In this document: positions 44,473 to 58,422 of the stretch, piece by piece
Layout of the letters: every line of letters begins with the position of its first letter
Numbering within the stretch: the stretch's first letter is position 1
DNA from: Sebaldella sp.
GTDB lineage: Bacteria > Fusobacteriota > Fusobacteriia > Fusobacteriales > Leptotrichiaceae
Assembly (NCBI GenBank): GCA_018058425.1
Contig: JAGOZX010000005.1
Span: 1-64,000 of the forward strand
Direction: 5' to 3'
DNA: 64,000 nucleotides
Position numbers and translations under genes: made by a program
Notes under the pieces: model-generated
The model's input: only the letters and a program-made list of their open reading frames with translations
Database searches by the model: none
What the model was told of the DNA's origin: nothing

Positions 44473-44504
44473 TTCATAATTATTTCACATATGTAGTGTA
44501 TAAT
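44473..44504 (+). promoter_or_regulatory. response-regulator-type promoter, copy 1
   Basis: A direct repeat TTCA (44473) / TTCACA (44484) with 11-base periodicity is placed so that its second half-site starts 15 bases before the -10 TATAAT (44499-44504). The same arrangement occurs at 44972-45003 and, on the minus strand, at 58391-58422, each upstream of a Spy-like gene. The boxes take the place of a -35 element. Confidence 0.7.
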
Positions 44505-44540
44505 AAGTTACATGAAAAATTTAATGAGGTGAGTAAAAAT

Positions 44541-44870
44541 ATGAAAAAAATTATATTAATGATATTTTTGTTGGTATTAGGGTTGTCTTCTTTTAGTTTT
44601 GGTGCTGGTAATGATGATCATTATAAAAATAGAGTTGAAAAACAAAAGAAGTATGATGAAATTTGTGCAAAATATGATTCTAAAATAGAGTCTTTAAATA
44701 GAAAGCTTTCTCAAAAAAATGATGAAGTAGAGAAAGCAAACAAAGGCTCAGATAAAGGAAAAGTAAGCAAACTAACTGGAGAAAGAGACTCTGTAAAAAG
44801 GGAATTAGAATCAGTTCATTCACAGTTTAGAAATGAGCTTGCTAGTAATAATCTAAGTGATTATAGATAA
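44541..44870 (+). CDS. small periplasmic Spy-like helical protein, paralogue 1
   Basis: A 109-residue protein with a signal peptide (about 1-21, ending FSFG) and a mature part of long amphipathic, charged helices (YDEICAKYDSKIESLNRKLSQKNDEVEKA, then ERDSVKRELESVHSQFRNELASNN). The size, helical hairpin pattern and promoter suggest a Spy/CpxP-like periplasmic chaperone or heavy-metal-resistance-type protein; the LTxxQ motif of true Spy is not present, so this is a structural resemblance. GAGGTGA supports ATG 44541, and an in-frame start at 44496 has none. It is paralogous to the proteins at 45041 and 57894 (shared KYD-K-------L--KN/RDL and RNELASNNL-like C-terminus). Confidence 0.75.
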   Translation: MKKIILMIFLLVLGLSSFSFGAGNDDHYKNRVEKQKKYDEICAKYDSKIESLNRKLSQKNDEVEKANKGSDKGKVSKLTGERDSVKRELESVHSQFRNELASNNLSDYR

Positions 44871-44886
44871 TAAGTTTTTAGTAAAT

Positions 44887-44933
44887 AAAGCTAAATTATA
44901 TAATGTAAAGTTGTATAGTTTAGCTTTTTTATT
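44887..44933 (+). terminator. intrinsic terminator
   Basis: AAAGCTAAA-TATA / TATA-TTTAGCTTT stem with T-run, 17 bases after paralogue 1. Confidence 0.85.
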
Positions 44934-44971
44934 TTTGAAAAATAAAAGTATTTACTAATTTTTTTGATAAC

Positions 44972-45003
44972 TTCATAATAACTTCACATAACTAATGTAT
45001 CAT
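44972..45003 (+). promoter_or_regulatory. response-regulator-type promoter, copy 2
   Basis: TTCA (44972) and TTCACA (44983), 11 bases apart, with a -10 TATCAT at 44998-45003 again beginning 15 bases after the second half-site. The core CTTCACATA matches the other two copies. Confidence 0.7.
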
Positions 45004-45040
45004 ATAAATATAGAAAATAGATTTATGAGGTGATGTAGAA

Positions 45041-45430
45041 ATGAAAAAAAGTATATTAACTATAATAGTATTGGTATTAGGATTCTCAACTTTCAGCTAT
45101 AGTAGAGACTATAATAATAACAGATATAATGAAAGAAATAAATATAGAGAAAATGATTATTATAAAAATGACAGAAATGCAAGAGATAGAAAATATGATC
45201 AGATTTACTCAAGATACGAGTCTAAAATAAATCTTTTATATGATAGACTAGATCAGAAGAATAATGACTTAAGATATGAAAGAAGAGGAAAGAGAACTGA
45301 TTATGGGAAAATAGATAGATTAAATAATGAGAGAAATATTATAATAAGAGAATTAGACTACACATATGCAGACTTAAGAAGAGAACTAGAGAGAAATAAT
45401 CTATATGGTTACTCGATACCCAGAAGGTAA
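45041..45430 (+). CDS. small periplasmic Spy-like helical protein, paralogue 2
   Basis: A 129-residue protein with a signal peptide (about 1-20) and a mature part extremely rich in Arg, Asn, Tyr and Asp (basic; DYNNNRYNERNKYRENDYY). The helical region YDQIYSRYESKINLLYDRLDQKNNDLR and a C-terminal ELDYTYADLRRELERNNLYGY align with paralogue 1 and with the protein at 57894. GAGGTGA precedes the ATG. It has its own copy of the shared promoter and its own terminator. The strongly basic composition is unlike its paralogues and may indicate binding to anionic envelope polymers; that is inference. Confidence 0.75.
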   Translation: MKKSILTIIVLVLGFSTFSYSRDYNNNRYNERNKYRENDYYKNDRNARDRKYDQIYSRYESKINLLYDRLDQKNNDLRYERRGKRTDYGKIDRLNNERNIIIRELDYTYADLRRELERNNLYGYSIPRR

Positions 45431-45541
45431 GAGGATTATAAAGAAAGGGATAAGTTAAAGTTTATCTTTCTAAAAAAACTTATAATGTGGAATCTTAAGC
45501 ATAAAAATATTAAATAACAGCAATAAAGGAAGAACTTGTAT

Positions 45542-45574
45542 GGGGGGCATAAATCATTTATGACCCCTATTTTT
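45542..45574 (+). terminator. intrinsic terminator
   Basis: GGGG-CATAAAT / ATTTATG-CCCC stem with one-base loop region and a TATTTTTA tail, between convergent genes. Confidence 0.85.
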
Positions 45575-45593
45575 ATGAAAAAATTCTATATTT

Positions 45594-46658
45594 TTAAATA
45601 TCATTAATTTGAAAATAATTCATTATTATTTCAGCAATTTTTGCGGTATCAGATAAAGGAATAAATTTTAGTTCTTTATTTAAAGAAGTAATTTTAGTAT
45701 CTGTAGCAATAGCAATTAAATTTTCCTTTTCACAAATAGACTTTTTAGAAATTTCTTCACGGATAATTTCTATTTTGGGATATTTACTATGTTTCATTCC
45801 TTCTATTATAATTAATTCAGTATCCTTTTCGATTTTACTAATTATTTCTTCAACACTAACATTTGGTTTTTTTACAATAGAAGCATATTTATAATTTGAA
45901 AAAATAGACACCTGACTGACTCCAGATTTCATAAATCGATTTGTATCAGTATCTTCATTATCAATAGTAAAATCATGACCGTCATGTTTTATAACTGCTA
46001 TTTTAGAAAATTTAAGTTTAAAAATTTCTATTAACTTCACTATTAAAGTTGTTTTTCCGCTATTTTTAAGTCCGCTTATACAGAAAACTAAAGGATATTT
46101 TACTTTCTCATAGTCTTTTACTGTATTTATATTTGTAAGAATTTTTTCTGGAAAATTACTATATTTTAGTTGAATATACTTAGTTTTAAGTTTTGAAGCT
46201 ATATCTATAAGCTTATACTTCCCATCATTTATAGACTCTTCGAGTAATTTTAGAGTGTTTTTAGAATAAATGGCACATAATGGATGTAGTCCATTTTCAG
46301 ATGAAATCACATAACAGTCATAGTCAGAACTTAGGAACTGCATCATATAATTAACTATTTCCTTTTTAATAAATATCATATCTACAGCACATATAAAAGT
46401 ATAAAAGCTTTTTGATTCAGATACTATTTGCCTGATTCCTTCTACTGGTCCAATTCCTTTTTCTCTATCTTCTACAAATGTATAAGGTAAGTGTGAGAAG
46501 CGTTCACGTGATTCTACAGAAACTAAAACTTCTTTAAATACACTTAGTTCATCTGCTATTGTAGTTAAAAAAGTTTTTTGATTAACTGTTAAAAATGCCT
46601 TGTCTTTCCCCATTCTGCTGCTTTTTCCACCAGCCAGTATACCAATGCTTATATCCAT
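45594..46658 (-). CDS. mobA: bifunctional molybdenum cofactor guanylyltransferase / MobB
   Basis: A 354-residue fusion. Residues 1-190 are MobA (ILAGGKSSRMGKDKAF GTP-binding start), which adds GMP to molybdopterin to form the MGD cofactor of formate dehydrogenase. Residues about 190-354 are the MobB GTPase-like partner (P-loop GLKNSGKTT, then VIKHDGHDF and IIEGMKHS). Last gene of the minus-strand formate dehydrogenase operon, after the FocA-type gene. GAGGT precedes the ATG. Fusions of MobA and MobB are known in other bacteria; here both halves look complete. Confidence 0.92.
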   Translation of the reverse strand: MDISIGILAGGKSSRMGKDKAFLTVNQKTFLTTIADELSVFKEVLVSVESRERFSHLPYTFVEDREKGIGPVEGIRQIVSESKSFYTFICAVDMIFIKKEIVNYMMQFLSSDYDCYVISSENGLHPLCAIYSKNTLKLLEESINDGKYKLIDIASKLKTKYIQLKYSNFPEKILTNINTVKDYEKVKYPLVFCISGLKNSGKTTLIVKLIEIFKLKFSKIAVIKHDGHDFTIDNEDTDTNRFMKSGVSQVSIFSNYKYASIVKKPNVSVEEIISKIEKDTELIIIEGMKHSKYPKIEIIREEISKKSICEKENLIAIATDTKITSLNKELKFIPLSDTAKIAEIIMNYFQINDI

Positions 46659-46687
46659 AAAAATACCTCTTCATATAAAGTTCTTAT

Positions 46688-47467
46688 TTACTTTTTTATA
46701 TCCTGCCCATAAGCAATATAATAAACTAATCCCAAGCAGACAGCTCCACCAATTACATTACCAATATATACAGGAAAAGCATTTGAAATATAATCTATCC
46801 ATGTAATAGAAGACTGTCCAGAAAATATTGCAGCTGGAATAATAAACATATTAGCTACAATATGCTGAAAACCAATTGCTACAAATGCTGTAATAGAAAA
46901 CCATATAACCAAAACCTTACCTGATATATCCTTTGTGATTGCAGCCATCCATACACCAAGACCAACAAAGATATTACATCCAATACCAGATACCAATGCT
47001 ACTAAAGGAGGATCAGATATTTTAGCAGTGGCAACAGCAATTGTTTTTGAAAGAAAGGCTCCTTCAGTAAAGCCTATAAAATGTCCTAAAAAATATGCTA
47101 CAGAGAAAGCACCTATTGCATTAGATATTGTTATAATTAACCAATTATACAAAACATCTTTTAATTTTATGGCTTTTGTATAATAAGCAACTGGCATAAC
47201 TAACATATTTCCTGTAAGTAATTCAGCTCCTGCAAATGTAACTGCCATTAATCCCACAGGGAAAATACCAGCTCCGATAAATCCTGAAAAGCTTCCCCAT
47301 TGAGAAGGCATAGTTCCAACTACTCTTATATATGCTAAGTAACCCAAAGCTATATATGCACCACCCATTATTCCAAGAGTAAACAGTTTTTTAAAAGAAT
47401 AATGAAGCTTTTCTTCACCTTTTTTAGAAATGAAATCTAAAATTTCTGCTGGACTCAAACAACTCAT
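46688..47467 (-). CDS. formate/nitrite channel, FocA/FdhC family
   Basis: A 259-residue membrane protein with six hydrophobic segments and the FNT-family signatures GAYIALGYLAYI, GAELLTGNMLVMP and the pore-region sequence GIGCNIFVGLGVWMA, including the N-x-x-V-x-L/W stretch. It forms pentameric channels for formate. Position within the formate dehydrogenase operon indicates formate import or release coupled to the enzyme. ATG 47467 has GAGGTG upstream; a GTG two codons earlier is less well placed. Confidence 0.92.
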   Translation of the reverse strand: MSCLSPAEILDFISKKGEEKLHYSFKKLFTLGIMGGAYIALGYLAYIRVVGTMPSQWGSFSGFIGAGIFPVGLMAVTFAGAELLTGNMLVMPVAYYTKAIKLKDVLYNWLIITISNAIGAFSVAYFLGHFIGFTEGAFLSKTIAVATAKISDPPLVALVSGIGCNIFVGLGVWMAAITKDISGKVLVIWFSITAFVAIGFQHIVANMFIIPAAIFSGQSSITWIDYISNAFPVYIGNVIGGAVCLGLVYYIAYGQDIKK

Positions 47468-47482
47468 AAACACACCTCTTTC

Positions 47483-48670
47483 TTATTTAAAATATATAAT
47501 TTTTACTCTATCACCTACATTTATTTCATTATTAGGTATTTGATCAATTAAACAGTTACAATTTACGAGATTTGACAATACAGAAGAGTGATTAATTTTT
47601 TCTGTTATTGAAACGAAGCCATCTTCTTCATATGCTCTTATAAAACGACGTAAATTATCACTTTTTACATATCCTTCTTTTACCACTGCATATGTCTTCT
47701 TTAGATTTAATTCTTTATTACACATAAACTTTTCAAGTAAGGGCCAAAAGAAAAGATGAAAGTTTGTAAATGCCGCAAAGGGATTTCCTGACAAACTTAA
47801 AATAATTTTATTTTTATAAAAGTTAGCTAAAACAGGAGTTCCGGGCTTCATATTTACATGTTTGAAAATTTGTTTTGAGCCAAGAATCCTTAGAGTTTCT
47901 GGAATTATATCCTCTGTTCCCACAGATATGGAACCTATAGTAATAAGCATATCGATACTATCTAATTTTTCCTCTATTTTTTGTACAGCATCATTTGCAT
48001 TGTCCAAACAGGTATCCATAAATTCCACTTCTATACCTTTTGATTTCAATAATGCTGATATTGTATAAGAACAACTATTATATATTTTGCCCATTATAAA
48101 TGGAGAACCAGGATTTATAATCTCATTCCCCACAGCTAAAATTCCTACTTTCATTGGGCTTAATACATTCACTTTTGCAATACCTAAACTTGCTAGGATT
48201 CCTATATGGAAGTTATTTAATTTAGTATACTTACTTATAATAAGCTGCCCTTTTTCTATATCTTCCCCAATTTTACAATAATTTTCCCACTTTTTCATTT
48301 TTTTATAAATTTGGACTTGATTTTCACCATAATCTGTATCTTCTTGTTTAATAACACAATCATAACCCTTAGGAATAGCATCTCCAGTCATTATTCGGAG
48401 TGCTGTGCCATTATTTGGAATTACATCAACAAGAATATCTCTGATCACATCTAAAGTCACTGGGTGGTCTTTTTTGGCATTATTACTATCATTACTAATA
48501 ATTGCATATCCATCCATAGCTGATTTTGAAAAAGGTGGAACTGGAAATGGAGCATAAATATCGTCAGCAATAATACTAGAATTAGCTTCTAGGATATCTA
48601 ATTCTATAATTTTAGTTTGAGGATTTATACATTGCAGCAATAAATCTACAGCTTCTTCTATTTTTATCAT
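47483..48670 (-). CDS. moeA: molybdopterin molybdotransferase
   Basis: A 395-residue MoeA that inserts molybdate into adenylylated molybdopterin. It shows PVPPFSKSAMDGYAI (about 48-62), RIMTGDAIPKGYDCVIKQED, and the MoCF_biosynth domain with SVGTEDIIPETL (normally SxGxxD) and LSLSGNPFAAFTNF. Adjacent fdhD, fdhF and mobAB show it serves formate dehydrogenase maturation. ATG 48670 follows GGGGGGAAG; a GTG one codon upstream is possible. Confidence 0.93.
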   Translation of the reverse strand: MIKIEEAVDLLLQCINPQTKIIELDILEANSSIIADDIYAPFPVPPFSKSAMDGYAIISNDSNNAKKDHPVTLDVIRDILVDVIPNNGTALRIMTGDAIPKGYDCVIKQEDTDYGENQVQIYKKMKKWENYCKIGEDIEKGQLIISKYTKLNNFHIGILASLGIAKVNVLSPMKVGILAVGNEIINPGSPFIMGKIYNSCSYTISALLKSKGIEVEFMDTCLDNANDAVQKIEEKLDSIDMLITIGSISVGTEDIIPETLRILGSKQIFKHVNMKPGTPVLANFYKNKIILSLSGNPFAAFTNFHLFFWPLLEKFMCNKELNLKKTYAVVKEGYVKSDNLRRFIRAYEEDGFVSITEKINHSSVLSNLVNCNCLIDQIPNNEINVGDRVKIIYFK

Positions 48671-48724
48671 CACACTTCCCCCCTTTATTTATAAATTTTT
48701 ACTTTGATTAAGAATATACAGTTT

Positions 48725-49474
48725 TTATTCTGTATATAAGTTCATTTTTTCTCCTTTTGCAAAGCCAATTACTGTTAAATTATGCTCTTTAGCAATTCTT
48801 ATAGTTGTGTCAGTAGGAGCTGAACGTGACACAATCATGGGTATTCCAAGGCGTATTACCTTCATGGCAATACTGCTGGGAATACGTCCACTTGTATAAA
48901 TACAAGTTTTATCTAAATTTACATTATCTCTTAATGCTTGACCAATAGACTTATCAAAAGCATTATATCTTCCTATATCTTCAGAAAAATATAATACTTT
49001 TTCATCCTGACAAAGCATAACAGAATGTACATTTCCTGTTTTTTTAAAAAGTTCAGACTTGCTTAATAATAAATTTGCATTTTTTAATATCACTTCTGGT
49101 TTCCATGCGATATTTTTTAGTTTTATATTGTTTTTAAGATTTTTAAATTTATAAGGAATTTCTGCAAAATCACCACTATCAGTTGTAACAATACTTTTTC
49201 CATTTTCCCCATAGGAAGTTAGTTCCACATCAGCACGCCCATTTTCTATATCAACTTTTATTGTACTTATCTCATTAGCACCTGATATTATTGACTCTGA
49301 ATATAGGTATCCTAAAATTAGTTCATCTAAATACTCTGGTATGCATATTAATTTTACTATAAGGTTTTGATCAATATAAATTGATAGTATGTATTCAGAT
49401 AGAATATAATCAAAGTCTTTTATGGCTTCACCATTTATATACCTAGTTACTGGAAATTTTTTTAAAATACTCAT
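48725..49474 (-). CDS. fdhD: formate dehydrogenase accessory protein FdhD
   Basis: A 249-residue protein of the FdhD family, which in E. coli transfers sulfur from IscS to the molybdenum cofactor so that formate dehydrogenase becomes active. Recognisable blocks are DELILGYLYSESII, FKKTGNVHSVMLC, DIGRYNAFDKSIG, TSGRIPSSIAMKVIRLGIPMIVSRSAPT and IGFAKGEKMNLYT. The Cys-x-x-Cys active-site loop known from E. coli FdhD (around residue 121) is not visible; the corresponding region reads TTDSGDFAE. ATG 49474 follows AAAGG. It sits between fdhF and moeA. Confidence 0.9.
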   Translation of the reverse strand: MSILKKFPVTRYINGEAIKDFDYILSEYILSIYIDQNLIVKLICIPEYLDELILGYLYSESIISGANEISTIKVDIENGRADVELTSYGENGKSIVTTDSGDFAEIPYKFKNLKNNIKLKNIAWKPEVILKNANLLLSKSELFKKTGNVHSVMLCQDEKVLYFSEDIGRYNAFDKSIGQALRDNVNLDKTCIYTSGRIPSSIAMKVIRLGIPMIVSRSAPTDTTIRIAKEHNLTVIGFAKGEKMNLYTE

Positions 49475-49495
49475 TATAAACAACCTTTCTGATAA

Positions 49496-52213
49496 TTAAG
49501 CTTTATTTACTTTAACTGCACAAACTTTATATTCTGGTATTCTTGCTATATCATCTGTAACAGAGTTCGTAACTTTATTTACATTACCATCTGGAAAGTG
49601 AAATGTCATAAAAACTTCATCCAATCCAACTTTATCTCCTACAAGAGCTGTTGTCTCCAATTCTCCACGACGTGAAGAAACTTTTACACGGTCTCCATTT
49701 TTTATTCCCATAATATTTGCATTTTCTTCATTTATTTCAATATAAGAACTGTTAACTATTTCATTTAATCCTTCTGTTCTACCAGTCATTGCACGTGTAT
49801 TATAATGGTAGAGCATACGACCTGTTACCATCATTAGTGGATAGTCTTCATCAGGCATTTCTTTAGATTTTTTGTAAATAGTAGGATAAAATAATCCTAA
49901 ACCTCTAGTAAACTTTCCTTCATGCATAATATAAGTACCTTTGTGATTTTTATCAGTACACGGCCATTGTAAAGTTTCTCCATTATCTAAACGTTCATGG
50001 CTGATACCTCCAAATGATGGTACTAAAGATGAAATTTCTTTCATTATATCAGCAGCATTAATATAATCAGTAGGATAACCCATTCTTGTCATTACATCAC
50101 AGAATATATCAGTATCTAAACGCATTTCTCCTTCTAATTCCACAGCTTTTCTGACTCTTTGTACACGACGTTCAGTATTTGAAAAAGTACCTTCTTTTTC
50201 AGCATAGCTTTTACCTGGTAATACTACATCTGCAAGTTCTGCGGTTTCAGTCATAAATAATTCTTGAACAACTAAAAATTCTAAATTATTAAGAGCATCT
50301 TTAACATGAGTAGTATTTGGATCTGTAACTACTGGATCTTCACCAAATATATATAGTCCTTTCATTTTACCTTCAAGAGCTTCTGGAATTACTTGAGTTG
50401 ACATTAAACCAGTGTTTCTACTTAATTCTACACCCCAACCTTTTTCAAATTTTTCAATGACTTCAGGGTTGTTAACTTTCTGATAACCTGGAAAGTCATA
50501 AGGCATACATCCCATATCGCATGCTCCTTGTACATTATTTTGACCACGTAATGGATTTATTCCACAACCAGACTTACCAATCTTACCTACAAGCATTGCA
50601 ATATTAGACATACTCATTACACCCTCAGTTCCAGTAGAGTGTTCAGTAACTCCAAGACAATAAATTATAGGTGCCTTTTCAGCTTTTGCGTACATAATAG
50701 CTGCTTTTCTTAGGTCATCAGCATCTATGTGACATATTTTAGCTACTTTTTCTGGAGTGTAGTCTTCTACAATTTTTTGAATTTCTTCAAATCCTTCTGT
50801 TCTGGATTTAATAAATTCTCTATCCATTAATCCCTCTTTTATTATAATATTCATCATACCATTAGCAAAAGCAACATTAGTACCCGGTTTTATCTGCAAG
50901 TGGATATCTGCATCTTTTGTTAGATCTATTTTTCTTGGATCCACTACGATTAATTTTGTTCCTCTTTGTAATGCTTGACGAATTTGAACCCCGACAACTG
51001 GATGAGCTTCAGTAGTATTTGAACCAATTAGCATAATAACATCCACATCTTGTGTGATATCTTTAATAGGATTTGTCATAGCTCCTGAACCTAGTGTTAT
51101 AGCCAAACCATGAACAGAAGCAGAGTGACAGACTCTTGCACAGTTATCCACATTATTTGTACCAAATGCTGCTCTCATCATCTTTTGAAACATGTAGTTA
51201 TCTTCATTTGGTGCACGAGAACAAGAAAAACCAGCTATTGCATCAGCTCCATAATTCTTTTTTATTTCTTTAAATTTAGACTCGATTAGATTTAAAGCTT
51301 CGTCCCATGAAGCTTTTTCAAATTTACCATTTCTTTTTATCAATGGATGCGTTAATCTATCTTGAGAATGAATAAATTTATAAGAACCAAATTTTCCTTT
51401 TACACAAAGGAGTCCGCTATTAGATGGTCCAGCGGCAGGATCAACTCCCACAACCTTATTATTTTTTACTAATAAGTCGTATTGGCATCCTACACCACAG
51501 TGAGGACAAGTTGTTCTTACTTTTTCTACTTCCCATGCTCTATAATTTCTCTTATTATCTTTAGAAGATAGAGCTCCAGTTGGGCAATTTGAAACACAGT
51601 TTCCACAAGATTCACAATTAGATTCTTTCCATGGTAGTCCGTAGCTTGGAGATATTTTAGTATCAAAACTTCTATTTTCAATACTTATTACGTTTCTCCC
51701 TTGAAGCTTTTCACAGACTCTTGTACATCTTCTACACATAATACATAGCTCAGGGTTAAATTCAAAAAATGGATTTGATGTATCTTTCTGATTTCCTTTT
51801 ATTCGTTTTCCTCTCATATAGCTTGTTTTCTCTATACCATATTCTAATGAATGTTTTTGCAGCTCACACGAACCATTTTTTCCACAACTAAAACAATTTA
51901 GAGTGTGGTTACTTAGAAGAAGATCTAAAATAAATTTTCTAGACTCCATAACTCTATCTGAATGTGTACTTATCTTCATTCCTTCTTTACAATGTTCAGT
52001 ACATGCAGTGGCAAGTCCGCCTTTACGTCCACCTTCTATCTCAACTACACACATACGGCAAGAACCATCTGGTGTTAATTCTTTTAAGTGGCATAATGTA
52101 GGTATATCAATTCCTATTTTTCTGCTGGCTTCTAGTATTGTCATTTCACTGGGAACCTGATATGGAATGCCATTAATTTCTAAACTAATATTTTCATTCT
52201 CTTTATTTAACAT
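49496..52213 (-). CDS. fdhF: NAD-linked formate dehydrogenase catalytic subunit
   Basis: A 905-residue molybdopterin enzyme. The N-terminal [2Fe-2S] domain (Cys41, 52, 55, 71) is followed by the NuoG-type His-Cys3 cluster (His103, Cys107, 110, 116), two [4Fe-4S] ferredoxin clusters (Cys157-167 and Cys200-210) and the catalytic domain with its own [4Fe-4S] (Cys236, 239, 243, 270). The Mo ligand is Cys362 (RVCHSAS), so this is a cysteine, not selenocysteine, enzyme. The C-terminal molydopterin-dinucleotide-binding domain is present (about 790-905). With the NuoE- and NuoF-like subunits it would exchange electrons between formate/CO2 and NAD. AGGAGG precedes the ATG. Confidence 0.95.
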   Translation of the reverse strand: MLNKENENISLEINGIPYQVPSEMTILEASRKIGIDIPTLCHLKELTPDGSCRMCVVEIEGGRKGGLATACTEHCKEGMKISTHSDRVMESRKFILDLLLSNHTLNCFSCGKNGSCELQKHSLEYGIEKTSYMRGKRIKGNQKDTSNPFFEFNPELCIMCRRCTRVCEKLQGRNVISIENRSFDTKISPSYGLPWKESNCESCGNCVSNCPTGALSSKDNKRNYRAWEVEKVRTTCPHCGVGCQYDLLVKNNKVVGVDPAAGPSNSGLLCVKGKFGSYKFIHSQDRLTHPLIKRNGKFEKASWDEALNLIESKFKEIKKNYGADAIAGFSCSRAPNEDNYMFQKMMRAAFGTNNVDNCARVCHSASVHGLAITLGSGAMTNPIKDITQDVDVIMLIGSNTTEAHPVVGVQIRQALQRGTKLIVVDPRKIDLTKDADIHLQIKPGTNVAFANGMMNIIIKEGLMDREFIKSRTEGFEEIQKIVEDYTPEKVAKICHIDADDLRKAAIMYAKAEKAPIIYCLGVTEHSTGTEGVMSMSNIAMLVGKIGKSGCGINPLRGQNNVQGACDMGCMPYDFPGYQKVNNPEVIEKFEKGWGVELSRNTGLMSTQVIPEALEGKMKGLYIFGEDPVVTDPNTTHVKDALNNLEFLVVQELFMTETAELADVVLPGKSYAEKEGTFSNTERRVQRVRKAVELEGEMRLDTDIFCDVMTRMGYPTDYINAADIMKEISSLVPSFGGISHERLDNGETLQWPCTDKNHKGTYIMHEGKFTRGLGLFYPTIYKKSKEMPDEDYPLMMVTGRMLYHYNTRAMTGRTEGLNEIVNSSYIEINEENANIMGIKNGDRVKVSSRRGELETTALVGDKVGLDEVFMTFHFPDGNVNKVTNSVTDDIARIPEYKVCAVKVNKA

Positions 52214-52242
52214 TATTCTTCCTCCTGAAATTTTAATTTAAA

Positions 52243-53508
52243 TTATTTTATACATTCTTCAAATTCTTGTCTGCTATATTTTAAACTAGATTTTATCGCA
52301 ACTCCAACAGATTGCCCTAAACCACAAGCAGATAGATCTGTGATATGATTTACTAAAGTTTCTAATTGATCAATATCAGTTTCTTTTACATTTTTTTTGG
52401 AAAAATTATTTAAAAGTTCTAAAAGTCTTGTAGTTCCTAATCTACATGGAGTACATTTACCACAAGATTCATGAACAAAGAATTCCATTACACTTTTTAA
52501 ATATTCAATAGTACTCACAGTATCATCCATCACAACAATTGCGCCAGAACCAACAGCTAAATCATTGTTCCACAGATCTTCATAGCTGTATAAGCGCTCA
52601 TTTAACTGATCTATATATCCAATAGGACCTGATTGCCCGCCTAAATGACAAAATTTTATTGGATTTCCAGTAGATGTCCCACCACCATACTCTTCTGAAT
52701 ACAATATGTCATGTAAAGGAGTACCTAGTTTAACTTCATAGACACCACGGTTTTTAGAATGTCCAGATAATGAAATTAGTTTAGTTCCACCGCCGTCTAT
52801 AGTTCCTAATTCTAAAAATTTAGTTCCTCCTAGATTTATAACAAGTGGAATACAAGCAAAAGTTTCTACATTATTTACTAATGTAGGCTTTAAATATAAT
52901 CCTACTTCTGCTAAATGTGGCGGCTTAACTCTTGGTCTTCCTGCTTTTCCTTCTATTGAGTTTAGTAGAGCAGAATTTTCACCGCAAACGTAAGCTCCAC
53001 TACCTGAAACAATGGTAATTGTATAATTAAACCCTTCTATTCCTAGTATATTATTACCTAAAAATCCAGCTTTGACAGCTTCATTTATGGCATTTTGAAA
53101 AGTTTTTTGAATATCTCTATATTCTCCTCTAATATATATGAATCCATTTTCAGAACCAAATAAATATCCTGCAATAAGCATTCCTTCTATTACACTAAAT
53201 GGGTCCTTACTAAGTAAAACTTTATCTTTAAAGGTTCCTGGCTCTCCTTCATCAGCATTACAAACAATATACTTAGGTGACTCATTGATTTCATACAGCT
53301 GTTTCCATTTTCTTCCAGCGGGATAAGCAGCACCACCTCTGCCTCTTAAGTTTGCTTCTATTATTTCATTTAAGATGTCCTCTTTAGGCATTTTAACAGC
53401 TTTTTTTATAGCTGAAAATCCGTCAAGTGCTATAAATTCAGTTATAGAAACAGGATTCTTCATTTTATTAATTCTTTTAAGTAAGAATTGTTCGTTGTTA
53501 TCAGACAT
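52243..53508 (-). CDS. NuoF-like NADH-binding flavoprotein subunit of formate dehydrogenase
   Basis: A 421-residue protein of the NuoF/HoxF/HydB family. GRGGAAYPAGRKW (NADH-binding glycine loop), CNADEGEPGTFKD (FMN site), GSGAYVCGENSALLNSIEG, and the C-terminal [4Fe-4S] motif ESCGKCTPCRLG. It binds NAD(H) and FMN and connects NAD to the iron-sulfur chain of FdhF. I start at ATG 53508 because GGAGATGA precedes it; a longer frame to 53562 overlaps the upstream gene. Operon neighbours are the NuoE-like gene (28 bases upstream) and fdhF (29 bases downstream). Confidence 0.94.
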   Translation of the reverse strand: MSDNNEQFLLKRINKMKNPVSITEFIALDGFSAIKKAVKMPKEDILNEIIEANLRGRGGAAYPAGRKWKQLYEINESPKYIVCNADEGEPGTFKDKVLLSKDPFSVIEGMLIAGYLFGSENGFIYIRGEYRDIQKTFQNAINEAVKAGFLGNNILGIEGFNYTITIVSGSGAYVCGENSALLNSIEGKAGRPRVKPPHLAEVGLYLKPTLVNNVETFACIPLVINLGGTKFLELGTIDGGGTKLISLSGHSKNRGVYEVKLGTPLHDILYSEEYGGGTSTGNPIKFCHLGGQSGPIGYIDQLNERLYSYEDLWNNDLAVGSGAIVVMDDTVSTIEYLKSVMEFFVHESCGKCTPCRLGTTRLLELLNNFSKKNVKETDIDQLETLVNHITDLSACGLGQSVGVAIKSSLKYSRQEFEECIK

Positions 53509-53536
53509 TCTTTCATCTCCTTTCATATAGATATTT

Positions 53537-54031
53537 TTATAATAGTTGTTCTGATTTTTCATTTTTTAAATTATTTATGATTTGTTTTATTTTGTCTTTA
53601 TCTAAATTGCCATAAACAGTGTCTTTAAGTTTTATAATTGGTCCAATATCACATGCACCAACACAAGGAATGTAATGAAAAGAAAACATATGATCTTCTG
53701 TAGTTTCTCCAATTTTTATATTAAGCTCTTCTTCTAAAAAAGATTTTATAGTATCTGATTTAGAAAAATGACATGGAGAACTATTACATATTTTAAAGAC
53801 ATTTTTTGCTTGTGGTTTTGTCTTTAACATTGAATAAAAGGTAGCTACTTCATATACTTTTGATTCAGGGAGTTCTAATTCCTGCCCCACCAATGCTGCT
53901 GTTTCTCTATCGATATAACCTTCTGGAATAGCATTTTGAAGTTCAAGTAAAATATTAAGTATATCTTTTTGAGTACCGCCATTGCTTCTTATGATTGATA
54001 GTTTTTTTTCATGTGATAATTTTTTTTTCAT
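53537..54031 (-). CDS. NuoE-like [2Fe-2S] subunit of formate dehydrogenase
   Basis: A 164-residue thioredoxin-like ferredoxin of the NuoE family: helical N-terminal half (IPEGYIDRETAALVGQELELPESKVYEVATFYSM), then the [2Fe-2S] ligands in CNSSPCH and IPCVGACDIGP (C-x4-C...C-x3-C). First gene of the formate dehydrogenase operon. AAGGAGG supports ATG 54031. It forms the electron-transfer module with the NuoF-like protein. Confidence 0.94.
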   Translation of the reverse strand: MKKKLSHEKKLSIIRSNGGTQKDILNILLELQNAIPEGYIDRETAALVGQELELPESKVYEVATFYSMLKTKPQAKNVFKICNSSPCHFSKSDTIKSFLEEELNIKIGETTEDHMFSFHYIPCVGACDIGPIIKLKDTVYGNLDKDKIKQIINNLKNEKSEQLL

Positions 54032-54301
54032 TTGAAAAATCCTCCTTAAACTTTCATACAATATTTTATAATTAGTTCATCTTCTCATATTTAGAATAAA
54101 ATAAATTTCATTCACTGTGATAAAGTTTACCTCGAAATAAACGAAAGTCAATTAAAAAAAATATTTTTTTTGTAAATTGAATTTTTATTTTAATAAAATA
54201 CCTATAAAATATAATAAATATATAGTTCAAAAAATATCATAAAAAAATATTTAATAAAATTTTTAGTGAGTAATTAACAGGTTTAATGTTTAAGAGGGAA
54301 A
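54032..54301 (-). promoter_or_regulatory. upstream region of the formate dehydrogenase operon
   Basis: No gene is seen in the roughly 270 bases before the operon. A -35 TTGACT (54146-54151, minus strand) with a possible -10 TAAACT (54124-54129, spacer 16) is the best promoter candidate, leaving a leader of about 85 bases. I could not identify a molybdate or redox regulator site. Confidence 0.4.
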
Positions 54302-54353
54302 TAAAAAAAGAGCATTATTACGAAATGAATTTATTCATTTTGCAATAACACCC
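54302..54353 (-). terminator. intrinsic terminator of the GNAT gene
   Basis: AAATGAAT / ATTCATTT core, extended by TTATTG / TAATAA pairs. On the minus strand it is followed by a seven-base T-run, starting 10 bases after the GNAT stop codon. Confidence 0.8.
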
Positions 54354-54363
54354 CTTAAAATAA

Positions 54364-55167
54364 TTATAAGATATTATTTTCATATATATTAATTTTAATA
54401 ACTTCTTTAAATCCAAAGTTTTTATACATTTTTACACCATCTTCGGAAGCTTGTAAAATACAATATTCTCTTTTATCATTTTTTATTTTAGAAAGTAGGT
54501 AGTTAAACATTGCTGTTCCAAATCCTTGTTTTCTAAAATGGAGACTTGTAGAGATATCATAAATTCCAATACTTTCTTCTGTAAAATAGAGGCATCCAGT
54601 AGAGACAGCATTTCCATTATAGTATCCAATATAATACTTAATACTGGAATTTTTATAAAGGTCATTTTGAGTAATTAATTTATAGTATTCTTTTACATAA
54701 AAAGACTCTTTAGAATTTCCAAATATAGAAGAAAGAATTTCAGAAAAATCATTCATTTCAATTCTAGATGAGACTTCTTTAATAAGAAAATTTTCTATTT
54801 GTATATCATCAGTATTTATTTTATCAATGGGCAGATACATTCCCAATTCCTGCTCTGTAATAACAAATTTCCTATTTTTCATTTCTTCTTCTATTTCATA
54901 ATTTGGCATTTCCCAAAACCATAAAGCAGCAGGGAATAACTTATTATTAAAATAATCAGCAGTTTGAGCTAAAATACTTTTTATATTTTCTGTATTTTGT
55001 TTTTTAATTACAGCTATATTAAATGTATTTGAGGGTATAGAAGCATCTATTCTAGCAAAGTGCTTTGTTTCTAATACTTTTGTAGTAATAAGATATTTTG
55101 AAAAAAAAGAAATTTTTGAAATAAAATTTTTTTGAATTATATTTGAAATTTTATCTATTTGATTCAT
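54364..55167 (-). CDS. GNAT-family N-acetyltransferase
   Basis: A 267-residue protein. The C-terminal 110 residues are a GNAT domain (STGCLYFTEESIGIYDISTSLHFRKQGFGTAMFNYLL: strand 4 and the acetyl-CoA-binding R/Q-x-x-G-x-G/A motif RKQGFGTA; ILQASEDGVKMYKNFGF). The N-terminal half is an extra domain of the kind found in two-part GNAT proteins of anaerobes. Substrate is unknown. The reverse-strand start is preceded by AAAGG. It lies between the VOC gene and the formate dehydrogenase operon, all on the minus strand. Confidence 0.85.
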   Translation of the reverse strand: MNQIDKISNIIQKNFISKISFFSKYLITTKVLETKHFARIDASIPSNTFNIAVIKKQNTENIKSILAQTADYFNNKLFPAALWFWEMPNYEIEEEMKNRKFVITEQELGMYLPIDKINTDDIQIENFLIKEVSSRIEMNDFSEILSSIFGNSKESFYVKEYYKLITQNDLYKNSSIKYYIGYYNGNAVSTGCLYFTEESIGIYDISTSLHFRKQGFGTAMFNYLLSKIKNDKREYCILQASEDGVKMYKNFGFKEVIKINIYENNIL

Positions 55168-55210
55168 TTGTATAAACCTTTCCTACTTTTTTTCTTAAAA
55201 TTATAGAATC

Positions 55211-55636
55211 TTAAGAATTTAAACTCTTATCATAGTTAAAAAACCATGACATTCCAAATTTATCAGTTAATGCTCCGTAGCAGATACTCCAAGGAGTTTC
55301 CTGTAAACTCATTTTTATAACAGCATTTTCACTTAATGCATTATAAACTTTTTTAATTTTATTAACATCATTTGATCGAAATGCTGTAGCTAGATTATTT
55401 CCCATTAAAACAGGAGAGTTTGGTAAAACATCTCCAAACATCATTATTTCACCATCAAGTTTAAGTTCAGCGTGAGAAACAAGATTTTTTATATTCTCAG
55501 AAATAGGAGAGTCAGGATTAGCAGGTGCATCTCCATATGTTTCAATAAAAGCCTCCGTTTCAAAAACTTTCGAATAAAATTCTAGTACTTCCTTACAATT
55601 ACCATTAAATAAAAAATATGGTGTCATTTTAGGCAT
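55211..55636 (-). CDS. VOC-superfamily (PhnB/glyoxalase-like) protein
   Basis: A 141-residue protein of the PhnB/3-demethylubiquinone-methyltransferase-like VOC group: TPYFLFNGNCKEVLEFYSKVF at the N-terminus, then HAELKLDGEIMMFGD, and TPWSICYGALTDKFGMSWFFN at the C-terminus. Function is not established for these proteins. AAGGGA about 10 bases upstream favours the ATG at 55636; ATGs at 55645 and 55654 are in frame. It ends downstream of the histidine kinase gene region but probably has its own transcript. Confidence 0.87.
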   Translation of the reverse strand: MPKMTPYFLFNGNCKEVLEFYSKVFETEAFIETYGDAPANPDSPISENIKNLVSHAELKLDGEIMMFGDVLPNSPVLMGNNLATAFRSNDVNKIKKVYNALSENAVIKMSLQETPWSICYGALTDKFGMSWFFNYDKSLNS

Positions 55637-55683
55637 TAATATCATTCCCTTCATAAAATATTTAGTTTTTATATTACTTTAGT

Positions 55684-57063
55684 TTATACTTTTTTTATAT
55701 CAAACCAGAATTTAACTCCGTTTTCCAGGTTAACTACTCCACAGCTTCCACCGAGTCTTTCTAAGACCCCTTTCACAATTGCCAGACCAAGACCAGTACC
55801 TCCATATTTTCTATTTCTGGAAGCCTCTTCTTTAAAAAATGGATCCCAGACTTTATCGATAAGATTTTCTGGAATAGTAGGGCCGTTATTTATTATTTCA
55901 ATTGTAATAAAATCATTTTTATTATACGAAATAATTTTTATTTCACCAGTTCCGTCACTTGGAACAAATGAAACAGCATTACTTATAAGATTATCAAAAA
56001 CTTGCTTTAAAAGAGACTTATTTGAATTAACTATAGAAGGTTTTTTTATATCAATAATTAATGATACTTTTTTTTCTTCAAGATCTACATTATATCTAGA
56101 AACTATAGAATCAACAAAAGTTTTTAAATCAAAATCTTCAAATTTAACAGTATCTAATAGAGAAGAACTTTTTAGTAAAGTAAGTAATTTATCAATTAAA
56201 CCAGACATATGCTGCCCTTCATTCATTATTTCATTTGCATATTCTTGTAGGTCTTCCTTACCATCAGTGTATCCTCCAGCAATATATTCAGCGTGAGTAT
56301 TCATTATTGTAATTGGAGTTTTTAGTTCATGTGTGATAGCTGTTATAAAATTTCTAGTATATTGTTCTTTTTTTCTCTCAAAATCAATATCTATTTGAAG
56401 CTGATTATTCATGTTTTTTAGATTTTGAAGATTATTTTCCAAAGTTTGTGATAATAGATTCAGATTATTAGCAGTTTCACCAAATTCATCTCTAGACTGT
56501 AAATCTAATTTTTTTGAAAAATTAAGCCCTATAATTTCTTTAATATTATTATTTATAAGTGAAATTTTCGTAGATAGATACTTTGAAAAGATCATTACAA
56601 AAGGGATTGAGATAATGAGAGAAATTATTCCTACATATATATAGAATTTGTTGGAGATTTCAACAGCTTTTTGTACTTGGTCTAAAGTAGTTAGTAGTGC
56701 ATACTGTCCTTCTGGAGTTTTCCTTACCACAAGTTTTAACATAGATGGTCCACGACGAAATTTAAGTATCTCAAACTCATAGTTTTTATAAGTAAAGGCC
56801 CTTTTTAGAGTTCTATTTGAGGAATTATCTAAAAGCCTTCTAGGAATAAAATTATAAGAAATTTCATCATTTAGCTCAATACTTTTTCTTTCTACTGGGG
56901 CTAATTTTTTGGTATCTAAAGTTTCAGCAATTGAAATTAGATCTTTTTGTTTATTTTTTAGGTAATATTCATTTAGAAATAGTTTATTAGAAAAAATTCC
57001 AAAAGTTATAGTGAAAATAATCAATAACATAGTAAAAAAGAAAATTTTATAGACTATTTTCAT
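55684..57063 (-). CDS. sensor histidine kinase
   Basis: A 459-residue HisKA-type kinase. Membrane segment 1 (about 4-24), an extracytoplasmic sensor domain (about 25-138), membrane segment 2 (140-160), HAMP (161-212), HisKA with the phospho-acceptor His245 (AITHELKTPI), and HATPase with NLISNAVSFV (N box) and GGTGLGLAIVKGVLERLGG (G2 box). It overlaps the response regulator gene by four bases (ATGA), so both are co-translated. The extracytoplasmic domain has no cysteines. A Cpx/Pho-like envelope-stress role is suggested by the adjacent Spy-like gene. Confidence 0.95.
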   Translation of the reverse strand: MKIVYKIFFFTMLLIIFTITFGIFSNKLFLNEYYLKNKQKDLISIAETLDTKKLAPVERKSIELNDEISYNFIPRRLLDNSSNRTLKRAFTYKNYEFEILKFRRGPSMLKLVVRKTPEGQYALLTTLDQVQKAVEISNKFYIYVGIISLIISIPFVMIFSKYLSTKISLINNNIKEIIGLNFSKKLDLQSRDEFGETANNLNLLSQTLENNLQNLKNMNNQLQIDIDFERKKEQYTRNFITAITHELKTPITIMNTHAEYIAGGYTDGKEDLQEYANEIMNEGQHMSGLIDKLLTLLKSSSLLDTVKFEDFDLKTFVDSIVSRYNVDLEEKKVSLIIDIKKPSIVNSNKSLLKQVFDNLISNAVSFVPSDGTGEIKIISYNKNDFITIEIINNGPTIPENLIDKVWDPFFKEEASRNRKYGGTGLGLAIVKGVLERLGGSCGVVNLENGVKFWFDIKKV

Positions 57064-57701
57064 TTTTTCACCTCAAATTTATACCCAAATCCTTTCACTG
57101 TAGTGATATACTCATGTCCAATTTTCTTTCTGAGGTTTTTAACATGTGTGTCAACAGTTCTAGGGTCACTTTCACATAATAAATCCCAGACATTATTTAA
57201 AATTTGTTCACGTGAAAAAATTTTATTTTGATTTTTAGCAAGATAGTATAAAAGATCGTATTCTTTTGGTGGAAGATCAAGAGCCACACTATTTAAATAG
57301 ACATTTTTTTCATTTTTAAAAAACTTAAAATTTTCTATAGATAAAATTTCATCACCTAGTAGATTTTTTACCCTGAGTTCAAGTATTCTTAAGCTGAAAG
57401 GTTTTCTAATATAGTCATCAGCACCAAGTTCTAATCCTCTTATTTCATCTTCTTCCTGAGTTTTTGCAGTTAACATTAAAATAGGGGTAGATTTTTCTTC
57501 TCTAACCGCCTTGCATACCTCATACCCGTCTTTTTTAGGCATCATAACATCCAGTAGAATTAAATCTGGATTCCATTCATAAAAAATATCAAGACCTTCA
57601 TCGCCGTCAGCGGCTTCTTTAACATCGTATCCTTTTTTTTCTAGGAATGATTTGATAACTTTACGAATTCTTTCTTCATCTTCAACAACTAATATTTTCA
57701 T
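57060..57701 (-). CDS. OmpR-family response regulator
   Basis: A 213-residue regulator: receiver domain (1-118) with phospho-acceptor Asp51 (LILLDVMMPKKDGYE) and the Thr/Ala and Lys switch residues (LMLTAKTQ), then a winged-helix DNA-binding domain (about 125-210; PPKEYDLLYYLAKN, DPRTVDTHVKNLRKKIG, TTVKGFGYKF). Family members bind direct repeats of 11-bp periodicity, exactly what is seen in front of the three Spy-like genes. AGGAGG precedes the ATG. Its gene lies directly downstream of Spy-like paralogue 3. Confidence 0.95.
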   Translation of the reverse strand: MKILVVEDEERIRKVIKSFLEKKGYDVKEAADGDEGLDIFYEWNPDLILLDVMMPKKDGYEVCKAVREEKSTPILMLTAKTQEEDEIRGLELGADDYIRKPFSLRILELRVKNLLGDEILSIENFKFFKNEKNVYLNSVALDLPPKEYDLLYYLAKNQNKIFSREQILNNVWDLLCESDPRTVDTHVKNLRKKIGHEYITTVKGFGYKFEVKK

Positions 57702-57806
57702 AACGATCCTCCTTGTGAGAACTTAAAACAAAAAGCTTTACTCAATTTTACCATTTTATCTAATTTATGTAAAATTTTTTATACTTAATCTTAGAATATA
57801 ATAAAG

Positions 57807-57850
57807 GGAGAAATAGAACTCTATTTTTGTAATAGAAGTTTTATTTCTCC
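57807..57850. other. long hairpin between paralogue 3 and the response regulator gene
   Basis: GGAGAAATAGAACTCTATT (57807-57825) pairs with AATAGAAGTTTTATTTCTCC (57831-57850) with only two wobble-type differences and a 5-base loop, so a roughly 19-bp stem. No good T-run follows on either strand. It may limit read-through from the Spy-like gene into the two-component genes, allowing low expression of the regulator, or act as a bidirectional terminator. Confidence 0.65.
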
Positions 57851-57893
57851 AAAATATTTTTGGATTTTTATAATATGAAACTTAATATTATAA

Positions 57894-58343
57894 CTATTTT
57901 TTAGGTGCAAAACCTCTTTCATTTGGGTTCATAGGTCTATTTGGCCCATTTTTGAAATCATGTCTTTTTTCTGACATACGCATTGGTCTTAGATTATTTT
58001 TAGACAGCTCATCTTTTAACTGATATCCTAAAACTTCTTTTTGAGCTTGTAAATTAGCCTTATCTTTTGTGATACTTTCTACCTTTTTCCAGTTAACATT
58101 TTCTGCTCTAAGTTCTTTTCTTAAATCTTGTCTTTTTTCTAAAAGACTGACATCTAATTTATTGAACTTATCTTCATATTTTGAATATATTTGATTATAA
58201 AGCTTTTTATTTTCCTCTGAGTAACCTTTTGTTTGTGTTACAGCATTAACACTTGTAACTTGTGGTTCCACTGTTGCTGCAAGAGATAGTGAAGATAAAA
58301 CCATTAACATTGCAGATACTTTTATAATATTTTTTTTGATCAT
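57894..58343 (-). CDS. small periplasmic Spy-like helical protein, paralogue 3
   Basis: A 149-residue protein: signal peptide (about 1-23, ending LSLA), then helices YNQIYSKYEDKFNKLDVSLLEKRQDLRKELR and ITKDKANLQAQKEVLGYQLKDELSKNNLRP, then a Pro/Asn/Arg-rich tail. The helical part aligns with paralogues 1 and 2 (YSKYE-KI/F--L----L--K--DLR; L-DELS-NNL). GAGGTGA precedes ATG 58343; a GTG three codons upstream is less likely. The gene is immediately upstream of the OmpR-type regulator and kinase and carries promoter copy 3, the arrangement expected of a Cpx-like system with its periplasmic effector. Confidence 0.8.
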   Translation of the reverse strand: MIKKNIIKVSAMLMVLSSLSLAATVEPQVTSVNAVTQTKGYSEENKKLYNQIYSKYEDKFNKLDVSLLEKRQDLRKELRAENVNWKKVESITKDKANLQAQKEVLGYQLKDELSKNNLRPMRMSEKRHDFKNGPNRPMNPNERGFAPKK

Positions 58344-58390
58344 TTGAATCACCTCATATAATTTTTGCTTTTCAGCTTTTTCCTATATAC

Positions 58391-58422
58391 ATAGTATTCC
58401 ATATATGTGAAGTGTGTGTGAA
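58391..58422 (-). promoter_or_regulatory. response-regulator-type promoter, copy 3
   Basis: On the minus strand, TTCACA (58422-58417) and TTCACA (58411-58406) are 11 bases apart. The -10 TACTAT (58396-58391) starts 15 bases after the second half-site, identical geometry to copies 1 and 2. Confidence 0.7.

Follow-up and report, generated by a model that had tools for sequence, protein, structure and literature searches.

In a 64,000-nt stretch of DNA from a Sebaldella species (GenBank assembly GCA_018058425.1, contig JAGOZX010000005.1, positions 1 to 64,000; the whole stretch is called the window here), three genes for secreted helical proteins related to ZraP, CpxP and Spy are each preceded by the same predicted regulator site, and the third is followed by genes for an OmpR/PhoB-type response regulator and a sensor histidine kinase. 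We consider it probable, at roughly 0.77, that regulator and kinase form an autoregulated system which switches on a set of envelope genes and, with them, a small RNA; its binding, activation and signal we infer from sequence. That the adjacent regulator binds the predicted site is well supported by comparison of genomes.

A direct repeat ahead of envelope genes

All three sites described in the first-pass annotation could be recovered: TTCA and TTCACA half-sites are spaced 11 bases apart, and the second half-site begins 15 bases ahead of the hexamers TATAAT, TATCAT and TACTAT. Two sites lie on the plus strand (44473-44504, TTCATAATTATTTCACA-N9-TATAAT; 44972-45003, TTCATAATAACTTCACA-N9-TATCAT), and the third, on the minus strand (58391-58422, TTCACACACACTTCACA-N9-TACTAT), would form the first promoter of the spy-like/regulator/kinase cluster. 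Written as the strict motif TTCA-N7-TTCACA-N9-TANNNT, with the reversed pattern as control, the element was found three times in the window, where 0.00 sites were expected and none appeared in 100 dinucleotide-preserving shuffles. The whole genome (3.24 Mb, 173 contigs) holds nine strict sites against none for the control, and still nine, every one with N9, when spacers of N8 to N10 were permitted (control, one). The count rises to 44 in the four Sebaldella genomes (9, 18, 3 and 14; control, one) and is nine in the other 29 Leptotrichiaceae genomes (control, two). A Poisson estimate from the rate in the other genera gives 0.49 expected sites for nine observed; Fisher's test of hits versus reversed-control hits, Sebaldella versus the other genomes of the family, was not significant (P=0.095) and is uninformative with controls near zero. 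A looser pattern, TCACA-N6-TCACA-N9-TANNNT, yielded 27 sites in Sebaldella (control, 0), 29 in genus g25, which belongs to another family (control, 1), and 34 in the other 84 genomes (control, 6). Based on the shuffles and the reversed-control counts in the own genome and the family, we rejected a chance origin of the motif, a possibility that the first-pass annotation had wanted settled by a genome-wide scan.

The fifth base of the -10 hexamer, which the pattern leaves free, is A in 38 of the 44 Sebaldella sites, and this supports a genuine -10. By its sequence the element is laid out like an OmpR/PhoB-type activator site: direct half-sites recur with an 11-bp period, keep a constant distance to the -10 and stand where a -35 box would be. 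The block could also be read as the promoter of an alternative sigma factor, since sigma-E of F. nucleatum drives the envelope-related small RNAs FoxI and FoxJ according to excerpts of PMC11005410, but a sigma-70-like -10 (TATNAT-type) below a direct repeat with an 11-bp period makes this the least probable of the explanations considered.

All 44 Sebaldella sites were inspected for the start of an open reading frame (ORF) 10-200 nt downstream. Such a start follows 33 sites, and in 26 cases the distance is 21-47 nt. By a crude hydrophobicity rule, a hydrophobic signal-like N-terminus is encoded by 32 of these 33 ORFs, including all seven in the own genome. Relative to the signal-like background of S. 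termitidis, given as 801 of 4,264 genes in an excerpt of PMC3035275, the binomial P is 1.6e-22, a value that overstates independence because orthologues and paralogues are included. The clustering ahead of secreted proteins for which the first-pass annotation had proposed to look is present, as judged from signal-like N-termini. Beyond the window, sites of the own genome precede a fourth paralogue (contig C114), two secreted TPR-type proteins (C146; TPR_2 in the one scanned) and an outer-membrane-barrel-like protein (C110; OMP_b-brl_2, E 0.0017, below the cut-off). A near-identical barrel-like paralogue is encoded directly upstream of the motif-controlled one (L003:695-1423), and the motif is absent from the 135 bases read before it.

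Pfam searches with ten targets from the genus recovered DKNYY (two), OmpA, TPR, an outer-membrane barrel above the cut-off (L089), a VWA/YfbK lipoprotein, and ShlB and TPS secretion domains; one of these ten, L088, had no match. Three tandem spy-like paralogues, each with its own site, occur in two genomes (G024, G026). The 11 sites without an ORF start in the inspected range comprise six before a small RNA, one 208 nt ahead of the ATG of a ShlB gene (L081), two near contig ends (L078, L086) and two without a plausible target (L002, L080). At four places (L079, L081, L083, L098) the motif is followed, after a long leader, by a large surface or two-partner-secretion-type gene (by Pfam, ShlB at L081 and TPS at L083), and by eye some of the long-leader genes of the latter type have a second sigma-70-like promoter downstream of the motif. 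The three helical effectors of the first-pass annotation would therefore be part of a larger regulon that includes a non-coding RNA, and as proteins they are nearest to ZraP.

Helical ZraP/CpxP/Spy-like proteins

The helical proteins of the window are a small paralogue of 109 aa (44541-44870, plus strand), a two-helix hairpin protein of 129 aa (45041-45430, plus strand) and a ZraP/CpxP/Spy-like two-helix protein of 149 aa (57894-58343, minus strand), all judged to be secreted from the N-terminus alone. Their earlier description as three Spy-like paralogues agrees with profile and, for the 149-aa and 129-aa proteins, with fold, and finds no support at the Pfam threshold. The small paralogue, which has no Pfam match above the cut-off, was placed by profile grouping: hhalign joins its group to that of the third protein with a probability of 98.3%. 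In the predicted model of the 149-aa protein, helices 43-79 and 85-115 form a hairpin (pLDDT 86-96 in the helix block, 72 over the whole model), and the model of the 129-aa protein shows the same hairpin with helices 35-82 and 88-118, so that both have the two-helix form of ZraP. Foldseek placed ZraP (3lay) at ranks 1-6 for the 149-aa protein, with probability 1.00 and E 0.02-0.08, ahead of CpxP at ranks 8-9 (3itf and 3qzc, E 0.44 and 0.81). The same six ZraP chains lead for the 129-aa protein (probability 1.00, E 0.07-0.23), and CpxP is absent from the 50 matches listed. As short helical hairpins resemble many structures slightly, these E-values are weak by themselves; a profile search of the PDB with the 149-aa family also had ZraP 3lay at the top (E 3.7e-4).

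The Pfam family Metal_resist was approached by the third protein (14.7 bits, cut-off 29.2, E=0.035) and had no match in the other two. Elsewhere in Sebaldella its orthologue L084 scored 26.8 bits, below the cut-off, and the paralogues L101 and L077 had none, while among relatives in g25 two exceed the threshold (L111, 31.0; L110, 29.7) and one falls below it (L115, 21.1). An identity as FadA-like adhesins was dropped, there being no FadA model among the Pfam matches of the window proteins. Spy homologues are assigned to enterobacteria, proteobacteria and some cyanobacteria in the excerpted part of a review (PMC8144458). The present findings would extend ZraP/Spy-type proteins with a regulator of their own to the Fusobacteriota.

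The adjacent regulator and its relatives

The regulator (213 aa, 57060-57701, minus strand; identified by Pfam, NCBIfam and homologue searches) consists of Response_reg and Trans_reg_C, and the kinase (459 aa, 55684-57063, minus strand; Pfam and NCBIfam) contains HisKA and HATPase_c, which confirms the OmpR-type regulator and kinase seen at first beside the third helical protein. For the sensor part of the kinase the PDB offered no credible relative. The curated model does not identify the regulator as CpxR (139.4 bits, cut-off 341). NCBIfam instead ranks RpaB (195.9 bits) and PhoB (195.2 bits) as the top two. Together with the likeness of TTCACA-type 11-bp repeats to PhoP boxes, this might point to a PhoB-like phosphate regulon; however, both scores are far under their cut-offs (330 and 296.2), and no phosphate-uptake gene was recognised downstream of the 44 Sebaldella sites, where the ORFs were judged by eye and ten targets by Pfam, which leaves that explanation highly improbable.

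In the other three Sebaldella genomes (L084, L085, L090) the site stands at the same place ahead of the spy-like/regulator cluster, the kinase following, and the regulator is 84-86% identical; in the other 29 genomes of the family, the best among the matches listed reaches 45%. The gap between the spy-like gene and the regulator gene contains a hairpin (57807-57850, minus strand), predicted by folding of the window copy and conserved in sequence in the alignment of the four Sebaldella genomes. It could be an attenuator or a processing site and could keep the regulator at a lower level than the spy-like protein.

The link between motif and regulator was followed through 96 genomes of the order with a stricter TTCAC pattern, which gave 34 sites in Sebaldella (control, 1), 39 in the eight genomes of g25 (control, 1) and 11 in the other 84 genomes (control, 4). 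Seven of the eight g25 genomes encode the regulator at 52-58% identity; the exception, G088, is 62% complete and has none at E 1e-50. The g25 regulator of G091 is a reciprocal best hit, as its best match in each of the four Sebaldella genomes is the orthologue of the window's regulator (54-58%, against 45% for the next). At the four g25 regulator loci fetched, a TTCACA-N5-TTCATA repeat (TTCACATTAATTTCATA) and a -10-like hexamer (GATAAT in three, TATATT in one) keep the 15-nt offset, and the repeats precede the start of the regulator by 29, 191, 230 and 749 nt. In both genomes of g18, GTCACA-N5-GTCACA or GTCACA-N5-AACACA precedes a SHOCT-protein/regulator/kinase cluster at the same offset. The first gene of that cluster, which reads interrupted in G071, lost its provisional Spy-like label because Pfam gives SHOCT only.

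A different OmpR-family regulator encoded in the genome might read the motif, and the adjacent one might be merely a target. The 11 matches to the regulator in its own genome (itself included, next best 46%), the repeats in the F. varium clade that keep this geometry but have other half-sites, and a close regulator relative without a strict site in G076 speak for such an arrangement, but we hold it to be unlikely, given that the regulators of Sebaldella and g25, the two genera in which strict sites abound, are reciprocal best hits and that the repeat lies upstream of that regulator's gene or cluster in Sebaldella, g25 and g18. The connection of motif and regulator made in the first-pass annotation is supported by these same two points and is weakened by imperfect co-occurrence, as in G076.

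Products encoded downstream of the motif in g25, for which 26 of the 39 strict sites were fetched, include Metal_resist-type spy-like proteins, small SHOCT membrane proteins, an outer-membrane efflux protein, an HMA protein, and EamA and Fer4_5 membrane proteins, and some ORFs (L103, L106, L109 plus strand) had no Pfam match. The G076 genome (genus g20; contigs C85, C166 and C3) carries three regulators with 53-56% identity to that of the window. By eye, the nearest regulator relative in the F. varium clade (51%; L141, L142, L146) and its kinase adjoin CsoR-like and copper-ATPase-like genes, a hint of metal sensing there.

A small RNA of Sebaldella

The six ORF-less sites that precede an RNA (L099, L073, L087, L096, L074, L097) share a downstream element, in which a CAGTATAA...TTATACTG stem at the 5' side encloses GGAGTTTTT; a CU-rich ATCTCC-like stretch was seen by eye further 3'. 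Each genome has one or two copies. T-rich terminator-like hairpins within about 200-320 nt were recognised by eye, and an automated hairpin scan agrees in about four of the six (L096, L074 and L097, with a T-rich hairpin at L087), finding other hairpins at L099 and L073. In each of the four Sebaldella genomes, the A-type copies come after the end of the same PTS gene (by eye). A covariance model of the 5' part, run with strict filters on the 96 genomes of the order, recovered these six copies and no others (E 4e-8 to 2e-13), E-values elsewhere being no better than 0.06. Since the same six copies, taken from just past the -10 onward, had served to build the model, scores and start point hold by construction; the informative part of the search is that no motif-free copy of the RNA turned up. 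In Rfam, no family came near its gathering score for this RNA or for that of the F. varium clade described below, and the few weak overlaps had E 0.12 or worse.

Proposed mechanism

In the mechanism that we propose, the kinase (55684-57063) and the regulator (57060-57701) would constitute an autoregulated two-component system. A dimer of the phosphorylated regulator would bind TTCACA-N5-TTCACA, a direct repeat with an 11-bp period and a second half-site that begins 15 bp ahead of the -10, and would stand in for the -35 box in recruiting sigma-70 RNA polymerase. PhoB and OmpR provide the analogy, a dimer on a repeat just upstream of the -10 making contact with the polymerase. The regulon would comprise several ZraP/CpxP/Spy-like periplasmic hairpins, outer-membrane barrels, OmpA, DKNYY and TPR proteins and two-partner-secretion genes, as well as one or two copies of the structured small RNA, to which a regulatory output may be ascribed. 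CpxP and ZraP act as chaperones and/or as feedback sensors for their kinases, and the spy-like protein encoded ahead of the regulator would probably have one or both of these roles. The envelope-stress regulon of the first-pass annotation accords with the enrichment of the motif and the secreted targets; an envelope-stress signal is our guess from gene content, and stress signal, binding and activation alike stay at the level of what sequence can suggest.

Several observations weigh against this mechanism. The helical proteins of the window fall under the Pfam thresholds. Two of the nine sites in the own genome are not ahead of a protein gene: the one on C23 has no near protein gene downstream and precedes the small RNA instead, and the one on C28 lies antisense within a coding gene (probably cbiD, identified by eye) and is probably a chance occurrence. 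At the two-partner-secretion-type genes, with their long leaders and second promoters, the motif may act differently. The RTVDTH-K-LRKK region, with the shared RTVDTH helix, is identical in the 13 aligned regulators, but this comparison covered orthologues. In G051 a repeat that ends 40 nt ahead of a regulator, in itself in favour of the mechanism, precedes one with 49% identity and not that genome's best match (51%). Outside Sebaldella, the regulator match with the best score is found in G076 (56%, E 1.1e-74, one in-frame stop), yet this genome has no strict site and only one loose GTCACA-type site, ahead of a SHOCT protein. Many other genomes have regulator relatives at 48-52% and no strict site, and conversely G004 has a strict site, ahead of an LTXXQ protein (E 1.5e-8), though its best regulator match is about 43%. 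Because of the exceptions in G076 and G004, we think that the half-site probably drifts between lineages or is shared by related regulators.

A small RNA family in the F. varium clade

Paired sites of the loose pattern in the F. varium clade (g15) precede a short RNA, some 85 nt in length, that carries a TCTTTCCCCAAGA hairpin and a terminator. A model of this RNA found 93 copies at E<=0.1, with 11-16 in each of four large-genome species and 3-8 in eight others (examples are L267, L283, L265, L282 and L294, besides about 80 other places). Apart from the eight weakest, all copies were inspected. The exact core is present in 79 of these 85, and two degenerate half-sites with period 11 and offset 15 in 72, where 200 Markov resamplings gave 2.1 on average and at most 7; of the other combinations of period (7-15) and offset (11-19) tried, none exceeded 30. 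The counts are not independent, owing to shared descent, and the half-site expression was picked after viewing examples. Among the half-site types, GTAACA/GTCACA occurs 15 times, GTAACA/GACATA 14 times and TTCACA/TTCACA seven times, the rest being fewer. Outside g15, the RNA-model matches in G079, G092, G021 and G042, the four inspected, lack the core.

The exact repeat geometry is missing from 13 of the 85 copies. Two of these are near-misses by eye (L341, L354), and L327, L336 and L345 have neither the repeat nor an alternative block. Five copies (L320, L323, L337, L343, L344) carry a different upstream block of the TTGTATTCACAAAAA type followed by TATGATATTAT, which suggests another regulator, and three further copies (L350, L351, L352) share a AAAAAGGAAAA block without a repeat, possibly another promoter type.

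The C-rich loop (TCTTTCCCCAAGAT) is near-identical among the copies, and the flavours of the half-sites differ (TTCACA, GTCACA, GTAACA/GACATA, GACACA). We give even odds to the idea that several related OmpR/PhoB-type regulators across the Fusobacteriales share the geometry of an 11-bp repeat 15 nt before the -10 and drive small RNAs and envelope proteins, and that in the F. varium clade each would switch its own copy of one RNA family. If true, many sensors would converge on one RNA seed. A single broad-specificity regulator for all copies is also possible.

Neighbouring genes in the window

On the minus strand, positions 45594-54061 hold a formate-dehydrogenase-type cluster with molybdenum-cofactor genes, among them a fused MobA-MobB-like gene (by eye). 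The large subunit of the formate-dehydrogenase type presumably reads Cys at the usual Sec position.

Comparison with known systems

Among the literature matches listed, none described a Sebaldella regulon or a two-component system of the Spy/CpxP type in fusobacteria; for F. nucleatum, the excerpts consulted have ModRS and CarRS on record (PMC9239216, PMC12288474; CarRS as a mention in PMC11005410). The proposed system resembles CpxRA with CpxP and Spy of E. coli in having an OmpR-family regulator, a membrane kinase, a putative periplasmic protein of CpxP/Spy-like fold and predicted envelope targets. It differs in the low score of its regulator against the CpxR model, in the order of spy-like gene, regulator and kinase in one direction, in the several spy-like paralogues and in its box, TTCACA-N5-TTCACA, whereas the Cpx box is of the GTAAA type. 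Cpx of E. coli likewise has an RNA output, CpxQ, which is derived from the 3' region of cpxP according to an excerpt of PMC4817254. With ZraSR and ZraP of Salmonella and E. coli, the Sebaldella system shares the type of helical protein, ZraP being the nearest solved relative by sequence and fold. Unlike ZraR, an NtrC-type sigma-54 activator, the Sebaldella regulator is of the OmpR type.

The nearest functional analogue known to us is LisRK with LhrC of Listeria; LhrC is a multicopy small RNA with UCCC motifs, responds to envelope stress and is linked to a two-component system, as an excerpt of PMC4132741 has it. The Sebaldella RNA differs in carrying GGAGTTTTT within its 5' stem; the F. varium-clade family has a C-rich loop. 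In FoxJ of F. nucleatum, the loop of a predicted hairpin bears a C-stretch (PMC11005410, in excerpt). The models of the Sebaldella and F. varium-clade RNAs had no match at E<=0.1 in genus g16 under strict filters, a comparison with the Fox sequences themselves outside its scope. Like sigma-E with FoxI and FoxJ, the Sebaldella system would combine a protein arm and a small-RNA arm at the envelope of a fusobacterium, but F. nucleatum uses a sigma factor where Sebaldella would use a two-component system. Since sigma-E, the known envelope regulator of F. nucleatum, is reported to answer oxygen and not classical envelope stress (PMC11005410, in excerpt), the place of an envelope-damage sensor in the phylum looks open. 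The Sebaldella system is a concrete candidate for it: its box is defined, and its predicted targets can be named and include a small RNA.

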